IMG/VR virus record: IMGVR_UViG_3300020207_000092
Location: 1 to 32,604 of that record
Direction: 5' to 3' (one strand)
DNA length: 32,604 nt
DNA from: a virus
Made by a program: the position numbers and the translations under genes. Positions 5,285-31,925 of this stretch are shown here, one piece after another. Numbering within the stretch: position 1 is the stretch's first letter; each line of letters starts with the position of its first letter. The notes beneath the pieces are model-generated. The model searched no databases. It worked only from the letters and a program-made list of their open reading frames with translations, and was not told the DNA's origin.

Positions 5285-5409
5285 GTAGGATTATGAACTA
5301 CATAGCTTGGTACAAAAAACTTAGAAGTCAAGGATATAAAAAACTTGACAGTATCTGTTGGGCAGTGTATAATAGTAAGCATTATACAATTAAAGGCATA
5401 TACAAATAA
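5281..5409 (+). CDS. 42-aa small ORF between glycosyltransferase and uvsE
   Basis: ATG 5281 overlaps the preceding stop (ATGA), and the stop TAA 5407-5409 overlaps the uvsE ATG (TAATG), so the ORF exactly bridges two genes by translational coupling. The product begins MSRIMNYIAWYKKLRSQGYKK and is basic and Tyr/Lys-rich, with no signal peptide or motif. The perfect fit to both neighbours argues that it is translated. The presence of the uvsE promoter inside it means that selection on this DNA need not be for the protein. No family is recognised. Confidence 0.5.
   Translation: MSRIMNYIAWYKKLRSQGYKKLDSICWAVYNSKHYTIKGIYK
5345..5373 (+). promoter_or_regulatory. uvsE: consensus sigma70 promoter for uvsE
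   Basis: TTGACA (5345-5350), a 17-bp spacer and TATAAT (5368-5373): an exact consensus host promoter. The start is predicted near 5380, with AAAGG (5392-5396) as a weak ribosome site 12 nt before the uvsE ATG. It lies inside the 42-aa small ORF. Confidence 0.85.
5366..5388. promoter_or_regulatory. 8-bp inverted repeat over the uvsE -10 box and start site
   Basis: TGTATAAT (5366-5373) and ATTATACA (5381-5388) form a perfect 8-bp inverted repeat with a 7-nt centre. The left arm contains the whole -10 box, and the centre falls at the predicted transcription start. This is the position of a classical repressor operator. In read-through RNA it could also form a hairpin. AT-richness raises the chance of coincidence. 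Confidence 0.45.
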
Positions 5410-29399: not shown

Positions 29400-29635
29400 T
29401 GTTTGATCCTAGAATAGACAATCTAGATACATTTACAGATTCTGAAATTGAAAACAGAATTATAGAATTAGGACGAAAATACTGGATGTCTCGCAATCCC
29501 GAAGTCCAGCAACAAATTGCTATTGCACTAGATATGTACAAAGAAGAAGCTAGTACTCGACGTGCAAAAGCCCTTCTCAAACAACAAGAACAAAACGGCG
29601 AAAATCCTCTTGACAATTTAATCAATGTATCGTAA
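29399..29635 (+). CDS. small conserved helical phage protein, 78 aa
   Basis: ATG 29399 shares its A with the preceding TAA, indicating coupling. The product is almost all helix: DSEIENRIIELGRKYWMS, QQQIAIALDMYKEEAS and RRAKALLKQQEQN. It is charged and has no motif I can assign. From memory, short proteins of this type are shared by T4-like marine phages near late structural genes. Expression could follow from the late promoter at 28752. The 3' end overlaps the sigma70 promoter of the next gene. Confidence 0.68.
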   Translation: MFDPRIDNLDTFTDSEIENRIIELGRKYWMSRNPEVQQQIAIALDMYKEEASTRRAKALLKQQEQNGENPLDNLINVS

Positions 29636-29638
29636 AAT
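29610..29638 (+). promoter_or_regulatory. sigma70-type promoter before the Pol III-like fragment
   Basis: TTGACA (29610-29615), a 17-bp spacer and TAAAAT (29633-29638, one mismatch). A 6-bp inverted repeat (ATGTAT 29625-29630, ATACAT 29637-29642) overlaps the -10 box. The expected start is at about 29645, the ATG itself, and there is no Shine-Dalgarno sequence, so the mRNA may be leaderless. Confidence 0.65.
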
Positions 29639-29644
29639 ACATGT

Positions 29645-30175
29645 ATGCTTATGAAAACAGACTCTTTAGGAATACCACGATTCTCTAATCGCAATCTTCT
29701 CGATATGATCTATTCAGGTCATGCGGATAAGGTACACGTTGTACTATGTGATCCAAGCGATGATGTAGATAAGTTCAACGCCGCTATGGAAGAGCAAGGC
29801 TTTAACAAACTACAAAAGTATATCCCACTAGATGTAGATCAAAAGACTTTTGACGGTGTATGTCAAAGTGAATGGTTTATGCCTAATGAATACAAAGACA
29901 TTAATGTATATGAGTATGTACTAGGCAAAGCAGAAACACCTTGTCCACAACACGTACAAGATCGCATATGGCAAGAATTAGATGCTTTTAGAGAACGCGG
30001 TATGGAAGATCTACTACGCTATATGATCTATCTTGTAGATTTCATGCGTGAGAATGATATTGTGTGGGGTGTTGGACGTGGATCAAGTGTAGCAAGTTAT
30101 GTGTTGTATTTGATAGGTGTACATAGGATTAATTCAATCCAATATGACCTGGATTGGAGAGAGTTCTTGAGATAA
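29645..30175 (+). CDS. DNA polymerase III alpha (DnaE)-like fragment lacking the catalytic aspartates, 176 aa
   Basis: The C-terminal third matches the palm entry of bacterial Pol III alpha: MIYLVDFMRENDIVWGVGRG, then the GRGSSVAS phosphate-binding motif (144-151), YVLYLIGVHRINSI, and YDLDWREFLR corresponding to the LLFERFLNPER region. In DnaE the PDFDVDF catalytic aspartates follow directly after this point, but here the protein stops. The N-terminal 120 residues also fit the helical linker before the palm in only a general way (CPQHVQDRIWQELDAFRERG). It cannot polymerise DNA by itself. It could bind a nucleotide or triphosphate, or interfere with or recruit host replisome components; this is speculation. 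It has a sigma70 promoter, so early expression is likely. An alternative start is ATG 29651. Confidence 0.78.
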   Translation: MLMKTDSLGIPRFSNRNLLDMIYSGHADKVHVVLCDPSDDVDKFNAAMEEQGFNKLQKYIPLDVDQKTFDGVCQSEWFMPNEYKDINVYEYVLGKAETPCPQHVQDRIWQELDAFRERGMEDLLRYMIYLVDFMRENDIVWGVGRGSSVASYVLYLIGVHRINSIQYDLDWREFLR

Positions 30176-30206: not shown

Positions 30207-30554
30207 ATGGTACAAAAATCAAAAGGCAATAAAACTTACAGAACTATGCAAGGTAAGATTGTTGATATGGATATGCTAAGAAAGCGTAACGAACTTACTC
30301 CAGCAGTAGGAAATGTAAAGACAAATGCCCGCGGAGACGAACTAGGTCCAGGCGGCAAAATTGTTCGTAAACGTGAAGACGTAGTTAAGGAATATTATGA
30401 TAACCACAAAGGCGTGGTTGATCAACCAGCAATAAAAAAAGAACAGGCTGTTCAAAAAGATTTAATAGACGATTGGGAAGATCCTGAACCAGTAGCTGAC
30501 ACAGACGACTGGGTCGAAGATGAAGATGGCAATTTTGTAAAAAAAGGTGACTAA
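30207..30554 (+). CDS. conserved acidic-tailed phage protein, 115 aa
   Basis: AGGAGA precedes ATG 30207. The N-terminal half is basic and Gly/Asn-rich (SKGNKTYRTMQGKIVDMD, NARGDELGPGGKIVRKRED), and the C-terminal half is strongly acidic (LIDDWEDPEPVADTDDW, VEDEDGNFVKK). From memory, proteins with the GNKTYRTMQGK start are conserved in marine T4-like phages, possibly as small virion components, but I cannot assign a function. The acidic tail suggests binding to a basic partner or DNA mimicry. The stop overlaps the next ATG by one base (TAATGG). Confidence 0.68.
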   Translation: MVQKSKGNKTYRTMQGKIVDMDMLRKRNELTPAVGNVKTNARGDELGPGGKIVRKREDVVKEYYDNHKGVVDQPAIKKEQAVQKDLIDDWEDPEPVADTDDWVEDEDGNFVKKGD

Positions 30555-30955
30555 TGGCATTAAACATTAATACAATTAAAGGTACCCCACGAGCAATCGG
30601 TAATAGAGTACTAGTAACCGATATGCACTTTGGCGAACAAACAACCAAAGGCGGTATTATAATTTCAAATGATGATGGTAAAACTCGAGGAATTTATCCT
30701 CGATGGGCAAGAGTATACTCAAAAGGCCCAGAGAATAAAGACGAATATAATGTCGGTGATTGGATTTTAATTGAACACGGACGTTGGACCCGTTCAATTA
30801 AGGTTGATACAGACAACGGTGAACTTGAAATTCGAATGGTTGAAGCTGAATCAGTTCTTGCTATGTCAGACGAAAAGCCTGAAAGTGTTTCAATCGGTAA
30901 AGAATATGCAGACGGCGAACATGCAACTGTAGATCCTAGTGTTTTTGCAAATTAA
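30554..30955 (+). CDS. GroES-like co-chaperonin
   Basis: At 133 aa this shows the Cpn10 fold order: IGNRVLVTDMHFGEQTTKGG (the N-terminal strand and roof entry), IIISNDDGKTRGIYPRWARV (where the mobile loop lies), VYSKGP, YNVGDWILIEHGRWTRSI and an E-L-E-I-R strand. It is longer than bacterial GroES (about 97 aa) through a C-terminal tail of about 35 acidic residues. T4 encodes gp31, an analogous co-chaperonin that lets host GroEL fold the large capsid protein gp23, and a similar role is likely here. The start is coupled to the upstream stop, and MazG-like follows after 9 nt. Confidence 0.85.
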   Translation: MALNINTIKGTPRAIGNRVLVTDMHFGEQTTKGGIIISNDDGKTRGIYPRWARVYSKGPENKDEYNVGDWILIEHGRWTRSIKVDTDNGELEIRMVEAESVLAMSDEKPESVSIGKEYADGEHATVDPSVFAN

Positions 30956-30964
30956 GAGGTATAA

Positions 30965-31321
30965 ATGACAAATCCATTTGAAGATATTGAACGCTTTGGC
31001 TCAGCGTGTGATCAAGAGCCATCAGAAGCAAACTACGATATGTATCTTAGTCTTATTGCAGAAGAATACAACGAACTTGCAGATGCTATAGCAGCAGATG
31101 ATCGTGTAGAACAACTTGATGCACTGATTGACATTCTTGTTGTTACTATGGGTGCAATACGTGCAGGCGGCTATGACGGCGAAGGTGCATGGCGTGAAGT
31201 AATGAATACAAACTTTGCTAAGATTGATCCAGTTACTGGCAAAGTTCGCAAACGTGAAGATGGCAAAGTTCTCAAGCCAGAAGGCTGGAAAGCCCCAGAA
31301 TTAGAACAATTTGTAAAATAA
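30965..31321 (+). CDS. MazG-like / PRA-PH-type nucleotide pyrophosphohydrolase
   Basis: At 118 aa this is an all-alpha NTP pyrophosphohydrolase. LIAEEYNELADAIAADDRVE carries the EExxE metal-binding set, followed by LDALIDILVVTMGAI with the conserved ExxD-type second half, and the C-terminal NFAKIDPVTGKVRKREDGKV followed by LKPEGWKAPEL matches phosphoribosyl-ATP pyrophosphohydrolase-like members. Phage MazG homologues hydrolyse (d)NTPs and have been proposed to lower ppGpp or dispose of non-canonical nucleotides. The protein has the right length and intact acidic residues. AGAGG precedes the start. The stop is followed at once by the dexA promoter and hairpin. Confidence 0.85.
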   Translation: MTNPFEDIERFGSACDQEPSEANYDMYLSLIAEEYNELADAIAADDRVEQLDALIDILVVTMGAIRAGGYDGEGAWREVMNTNFAKIDPVTGKVRKREDGKVLKPEGWKAPELEQFVK

Positions 31322-31324
31322 TAC

Positions 31325-31353
31325 TTGACTCCTAGCAGTTTATACGTTATAAT
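31325..31353 (+). promoter_or_regulatory. dexA: sigma70-type promoter for dexA
   Basis: TTGACT (31325-31330), a 17-bp spacer and TATAAT (31348-31353). The start is expected near 31360, leaving a 20-nt leader with TTAGGAG (31366-31372) 7 nt before the TTG start. The promoter begins right after the MazG-like stop and lies within a long hairpin. Confidence 0.84.
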
Positions 31354-31373
31354 GTATATAAATTGTTAGGAGT
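31328..31373 (+). promoter_or_regulatory. 17-bp hairpin enclosing the dexA promoter and hiding the dexA ribosome site; possible terminator
   Basis: ACTCCTAGCAGTTTATA (31328-31344) pairs along its full length with TATAAATTGTTAGGAGT (31357-31373), with two G-U wobbles and a 12-nt loop that contains most of the -10 box. TTTCTTTT follows at once. In RNA made from upstream, the whole TTAGGAG Shine-Dalgarno sequence would be paired, and the U-rich tail could also end transcription. RNA started at the internal promoter (about 31360) has only the end of the right arm, so its ribosome site stays open. T4 uses the same design for several genes, where early read-through RNA is silenced and locally initiated RNA is translated. 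Confidence 0.7.
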
Positions 31374-31379
31374 TTTCTT

Positions 31380-31925
31380 TTGGCTACACACGGCATGATT
31401 GACTTAGAAACACTAGGCGTTGAGCCTGATAGTGTTATAATGACTCTAGGTGCTATTAAGTTTGATCCTTATTCTGATGCAGAACCGCATAGTCCGTTAT
31501 ACTTGCGTGGCGATGTAGAAGAACAAAGCGAAGTATACGGACGTTCTATCGACGACAACACTCTTGCTTGGTGGAGTAGACAGCCACAAGAAATTCAAGA
31601 CGAAGCATTTGGCGATCATCAAGATCGTGTAACTGTACAAGAAATGCTACGTCAATTAAACAAATGGTGTGTAGGATTAGACTACATTTGGTGTCAAGGT
31701 CCTACGTTCGACTTTGTAATTCTACAAAGTTTATATAAAGACGCAGAAAAACCTGCACCTTGGAACTATTGGCAAATACGTGATAGTCGTACACTGTTTT
31801 CAATGATGCCAAGCGATCCTCGCAAGGCAATACAGGAAAGTTTGCATAACGCACTAGCAGATTGTTATTATCAAGCAAAGTGTGTGCAGCAAAGTTATAA
31901 ACATTTTGGAGTACAATCTAAGTGA
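31380..31925 (+). CDS. dexA: DexA-type 3'-5' exonuclease (DEDD family)
   Basis: The TTG start at 31380 is supported by AGGAG 7 nt upstream and by the family motif that begins almost at once: MIDLETLG (residues 6-13) carries the DxE exonuclease I pair, WCQGPTFDFVIL the exonuclease II aspartate, and HNALADCYYQA the His/Asp of exonuclease III. Length (181 aa) and layout match T4 DexA and Rv2179c-like 3'-5' exonucleases. The T4 enzyme degrades ssDNA and is not essential. Expression is set by the promoter/hairpin just upstream. It overlaps the next gene by 4 nt (GTGA). Confidence 0.85.
   Translation: MATHGMIDLETLGVEPDSVIMTLGAIKFDPYSDAEPHSPLYLRGDVEEQSEVYGRSIDDNTLAWWSRQPQEIQDEAFGDHQDRVTVQEMLRQLNKWCVGLDYIWCQGPTFDFVILQSLYKDAEKPAPWNYWQIRDSRTLFSMMPSDPRKAIQESLHNALADCYYQAKCVQQSYKHFGVQSK

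Follow-up and report, generated by a model that had tools for sequence, protein, structure and literature searches.

A conserved RNA hairpin that encloses a promoter at the dexA locus of uncultivated phages is predicted to hide the dexA ribosome site in read-through transcripts

The window analyzed here, a stretch of 32,604 bases, is a single viral record (IMGVR_UViG_3300020207_000092, positions 1 to 32,604), and the group that bears the element described below consists of uncultivated viruses of bacteria. Pfam and PHROG matches show that the phage encodes GroES-like, MazG-like and DexA-like exonuclease genes (Table 1), with the mazG stop codon (31321) placed 3 nt upstream of the -35 box of a sigma-70 type promoter (TTGACT, a 17-nt spacer and TATAAT; 11 of 12 matches). 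This promoter lies within an inverted repeat whose arms form 17 pairs, from A31328-T31373 through A31344-T31357, with only two G-U pairs (31335/31366 and 31338/31363) in a stem that is rather A+U-rich above its foot. RNA of positions 31300-31400 was calculated to fold at -24.4 kcal/mol (z -3.48), and 0 of 200 shuffled sequences folded as well. The 17-bp pairing, the promoter inside it and the right arm holding the entire TTAGGAG site, with a U-rich tract after it, had all been pointed out in the original prediction, and each is present as described, the pairing exactly so. TTAGGAG is followed by TTTTCTTT and then by the dexA TTG start at 31380. A comparison of the hairpin with Rfam returned just two sub-threshold microRNA matches to its shape, which were judged to be chance. 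The 5' arm ends at 31344 and the -10 box at 31353, so the promoter appears to be placed such that its RNA would lack the 5' arm; judging from the position of the -10 box, dexA transcription is expected to start near 31359-31361, within the 3' arm.

Table 1. Features of the junction between mazG and dexA, in window coordinates
Feature	Position	Strand	Remarks
GroES-like (Cpn10 / head morphogenesis), upstream operon	30554..30955	+	PHROG 931 1e-15; Pfam Cpn10 5e-4, under gathering cut-off
MazG-like nucleotide pyrophosphohydrolase	30965..31321	+	PHROG 671 6e-32; Pfam PRA-PH 1e-8
-35 box TTGACT	31325..31330	+	last three bases form the foot of the 5' arm and pair where the SD region ends
5' arm (anti-SD)	31328..31344	+	entirely upstream of the expected transcription start
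-10 box TATAAT	31348..31353	+	in the hairpin loop region
3' arm	31357..31373	+	contains the expected transcription start
Shine-Dalgarno TTAGGAG	31366..31372	+	fully within the 3' arm, predicted to be wholly paired in read-through RNA
U-rich tract TTTTCTTTT	31373..31381	+	after the stem; doubles as SD-start spacer and first start-codon bases
DexA-like 3'-5' exonuclease gene, TTG start	31380..31925	+	Pfam Rv2179c-like 6e-36; PHROG 255 2e-48

By calculation, TTAGGAG takes 15.0 kcal/mol to open in read-through RNA, as against 3.3 kcal/mol in promoter RNA starting at 31359 or 31361, in agreement with the earlier proposal that the hairpin hides the Shine-Dalgarno sequence (SD) only in RNA coming from upstream. 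The promoter RNA can still make a weak 8-bp hairpin of -4.5 kcal/mol, in which the SD is covered too. The opening cost in read-through RNA had a median of 12.9 kcal/mol in 31 distinct dexA upstream sequences with the promoter; for the 46 TTGAC promoters found before genes in four relatives, dexA ones included, it was 2.0 kcal/mol, and just five of these 46 reached 8 kcal/mol, three being dexA elements. Relatives that keep the promoter would be expected to keep the pairing, and this holds in part: 23 of the 31 sequences have an SD-opening cost of 8 kcal/mol or more, while 4 cost less than 5 kcal/mol and yet keep the promoter. Relatives with a retained promoter and a weak hairpin include L107, L065, L049 and L023. 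Computed folding and covariation together indicate that the SD is locked in a stable helix in RNA arriving from upstream.

A DexA search yielded 80 loci, about 30 of which have a promoter upstream of dexA; at the remaining loci an ORF or tRNA-like sequence lies directly upstream and the promoter is absent. The 3' end of a candidate tRNA gene directly precedes dexA in L016, L028, L031, L037, L052 and others; dexA begins with ATG there, and the promoter element is missing. A pattern in which TTGAC, TATANT and the first dexA codons were fixed and the arms left free, gave 32 distinct upstream sequences. In the 30 dexA sequences with GGAG, 372 of 420 cells were paired in register, compared with 156-235 when the arms were slid by 1-3 bases. 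Covariation in related phages, put forward earlier as a check on the pairing, was clear in an alignment of 43 non-redundant sequences of the dexA locus: the covariation score was 0.364, compared with 0.07-0.11 for slid arms and 0.145 for shuffled ones, 85.8% of cells were paired (40-53% when slid), and 93 cells had changed on both sides with pairing kept (19-37 when slid, a mean of 37 when shuffled), all sequence counts being taken without correction for shared ancestry. Compensatory changes occur in 9 of 16 pairs, and pair 12-44 appears among the phages as C-G, U-A, A-U, G-C or G-U. The hairpin at the dexA locus is a real, conserved RNA structure.

Read-through into the element is to be expected, because most dexA-locus elements have a co-directional ORF upstream (MazG, GroES-like or other) that stops no more than about 60 nt from the -35 box. 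The nearest annotated MazG genes in cyanophage isolates follow their neighbor by at most 9 nt, or by 42 nt in S-CAM7, a comparison of gene spacing only. The presence of a small gene between the element and dexA varies among relatives: a gene of about 53 aa is found there in many of them and is absent in the window. Its protein (SGIGTTGATGIALMILHITGYLT...; L003, L005, L010, L084, L199 and others) has no Pfam match. This gene was considered as an independent use of the element and rejected, as the locus is the same, with a gene inserted between element and dexA.

The -35 box itself forms part of the anti-SD. Its sixth base is T in 26 of 30 dexA elements and pairs with the A of GGAG, while among the promoters of four relatives the same position is A in 37 and T in 10, elements counted; when three elements are left out, the Fisher p for the contrast is 1.5e-9, uncorrected for ancestry. 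Divergent phages with TTGACA or TTGACC as the -35 box have weak hairpins (L065, L023, L072, L107).

A search of viral contigs for TTGACTCCT, TATANT and AGGAG found at least 125 distinct cores. Among the matches listed, 74 of 125 cores pair at five or six of the six positions beyond the selected bases; with permuted arms 15.6 cores pair that well, with a maximum of 25. The element is located before dexA, before the gene of about 53 aa ahead of dexA, before MazG family genes on other contigs and before dUTPase, and genes of 149 and 86 aa in near-complete relatives have their own version. A scan of genome contigs for a strict form of the motif gave zero matches and no clue to the host.

The eight bases after the SD contain a mean of 5.8 T in the structured elements among the matches listed, and 74% of these elements have at least six T, as compared to a mean of 2.1-2.7 T, and at least six T in 0-5%, for ordinary genes of four relatives. 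Because this enrichment is what an intrinsic terminator needs, the dexA hairpin is probably an intrinsic terminator as well, and the U-tract suggests that the element may end the GroES/MazG operon, which the original prediction had raised with a "perhaps".

The reading that we favor, and hold to be fairly probable, is that of a three-in-one 50-bp junction between two operons, serving as terminator, promoter and ribosome-binding site (RBS) lock, with dexA made from its own promoter only and insulated from groES-mazG read-through. A polymerase coming from groES-mazG would transcribe the entire inverted repeat, and the RNA would fold and probably be released at the U-rich tract; in transcripts that escape, the stem would keep the dexA ribosome site locked. 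The host-type sigma-70 promoter, with its -10 box in the loop, would initiate RNA inside the 3' arm, and this RNA, with half of the hairpin, would not terminate there and would be translatable. DexA would thus come from its own promoter only, presumably early; counts of late-promoter motifs gave no information on timing. Against this reading stand the relatives that combine a retained promoter with a weak hairpin, the many dexA genes that lack the element altogether and the weak hairpin open to the promoter RNA. The main idea of the original prediction was largely right, with a probable terminator role now added and its second example corrected below, and its interpretation is partly supported; the arrangement of the sequence suggests an uncoupling of dexA.

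Part of this arrangement resembles a device of T4-like phages. PeSLs (promoter-early stem-loops), which Arbiol 2010 and Comeau 2014 reportedly defined, are said to be sigma-70-like promoters in the stem-loops of terminators in RB49, phi1 and other T4-like phages. They are also said to occur in many copies per genome and to mediate gene shuffling; the corresponding observations here are the 2-5 hairpin-embedded promoters per relative given below and the small gene whose presence varies at the dexA locus. In the RB49 genome we found the same geometry, with sigma-70-like early promoters whose -10 boxes lie inside hairpins, some of them then followed by U-runs, and with the SD of the next gene outside. 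A scan of RB49 for a promoter hairpin containing the SD of the next gene found no convincing case; two rows flagged by the script as having an SD in the arm proved on inspection not to hold the SD of a gene that starts just after a strong stem with a -10 box. The dexA element shares with the PeSL a sigma-70-like promoter embedded in a stem-loop, and is unlike those of RB49 in having the SD in the 3' arm and a U-tract that doubles as SD-start spacer. The dexA element might be first of all a composite promoter-terminator of this kind, in which the SD came to lie in the 3' arm owing to tight space and its hiding has no function. The U-tract enrichment, the RB49 promoters and a promoter-terminator hairpin without SD in the relative G001 (L247) all speak for this account, which we nevertheless regard as unlikely, given that the 5' arm runs on as far as the -35 box and in this way covers the whole SD. 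In addition, 11 strongly paired SD-covering elements among the matches listed (-18 to -31 kcal/mol) have few T after the stem (for example, AGGAGATCTCATG), and therefore hiding of the SD may be maintained on its own account.

Elements without a U-tract are in line with the opposite simplification, in which the hairpin is an RBS lock only and gives translational insulation with real termination absent. The computed difference in opening cost fits such a lock, and precedents are at hand. For T4 gene e, PMC3014915 describes an early read-through RNA that hides the SD and late promoters located in the DNA of the 5' strand, an arrangement associated in the same passages with a 100-fold drop in lysozyme synthesis; similar arrangements are described for I-TevI, segB and mobE of Aeh1 in passages of PMC2988022. 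In Bacillus subtilis, according to passages of PMC5942855, a hairpin of 20+ bp before sigG was put forward as a barrier to the translation of spoIIG read-through RNA, and PsigG transcripts cannot form it. The sigG case, as those passages present it, is like the dexA element in that read-through RNA forms the hairpin and own-promoter RNA does not; it differs in being a bacterial gene with a sporulation sigma promoter, and a terminator role is undescribed in these passages. An RBS lock acting alone leaves the strong T enrichment after the SD unexplained, and we think it improbable, more so than a terminator with an idle SD.

Elements of the T4 gene e type (also soc, 49, I-TevI, segB and Aeh1 mobE) share with that of dexA an upstream RNA that hides the SD and an own promoter in the DNA of the 5' arm, which leads to a free transcript. 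Their inner promoter is middle or late and the hairpin delays the gene, whereas dexA has a full sigma-70 promoter: it is TTGACT-17-TATAAT, TATAAATA is absent, and it does not belong to the phage late or middle type. The dexA element is also unlike them in using the -35 box as a piece of the anti-SD and in having a U-tract behind its stem. It would work like both the T4 gene e type and the PeSL and, as tested, is a full member of neither. Each trick is known, and their combination at an early-type promoter looks new, as do the early-type promoter itself, the -35 box doubling as anti-SD and the fused U-tract.

The inverted repeat overlaps the -35 and -10 boxes and could in principle be a DNA operator or cruciform bound by a regulator. 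One relative (L234) carries a near-perfect palindrome, adjoining a MazG gene, in which the same promoter and AGGAG site are read both ways, as such a site might be. In the 74 structured elements among the matches listed, search-fixed bases excluded, G-U occupies 68 cells and A-C 12; the binomial p of 1e-10 is overstated owing to shared ancestry, and the direction is clear. A DNA-level palindrome would treat G-U and A-C alike, because one mismatch appears as G-U on one strand and as A-C on the other, and the excess of G-U therefore means that selection acts on a plus-strand nucleic acid, in the simplest case the read-through RNA. The arm sequences also change freely with the pairing kept, and an operator or cruciform is accordingly very improbable. 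An origin of the pairing by chance, or by common descent of a single promoter sequence, can be set aside almost entirely: the sequences are related, and the -35 box and SD are constrained anyway, but the observed pairing was unmatched by shuffles, slides and permutations, and unrelated genes have the same design with different arms.

The three-in-one junction would merge the promoter-terminator cassette with the read-through RBS lock, both of them known from phages, in a minimal element whose bases serve three functions at once. Since its arms covary across dozens of phages, it offers a strong and testable case of selection for an early gene that stays deaf to transcription from upstream, and as a compact natural insulator it is open to study without the uncultivated host.

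The original prediction had also suggested a repeated strategy, naming a similar but weaker pairing at 560-579 of the window. That site does contain the 6-bp pairing CTAACA/TGTTAG, but relatives keep the TTGACT promoter there with the pairing reduced to 4-5 bp or lost; repetition is instead seen at other genes and in other phages. In G001, a 149-aa gene of no known family (L252 13622, minus strand) has a TTGACA promoter, a AAACTCCTGCT/AGCAGGAGTTT stem, eight T and an ATG, and would by its sequence be an independent SD-in-terminator promoter. In four near-complete relatives, 2-5 of the 23-34 TTGAC promoters per relative are embedded in hairpins and 0-2 have an SD in the arm; most are without such a hairpin, and therefore the element is not the default. 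It is possible, and we put it forward only tentatively, that the element is a portable 50-bp terminator-promoter-RBS lock, with the -35 box as part of the anti-SD and with repeated origins in unrelated phages, that serves as a general route to give one early gene own-promoter-only expression, immune to read-through in a dense genome.

Two further promoters in the window are associated with inverted repeats. At 5345-5388, a TTGACA-TATAAT promoter precedes the gene for a UvdE-like endonuclease (start 5409); the -10 box of this promoter falls within a perfect inverted repeat of 8 bp (TGTATAAT/ATTATACA) that includes neither SD nor U-tract. At 29610-29645, the -10 region of a TTGACA-17-TAAAAT promoter lies between ATGTAT and ATACAT, directly 5' of an ORF start at 29645, which leaves almost zero 5' leader.
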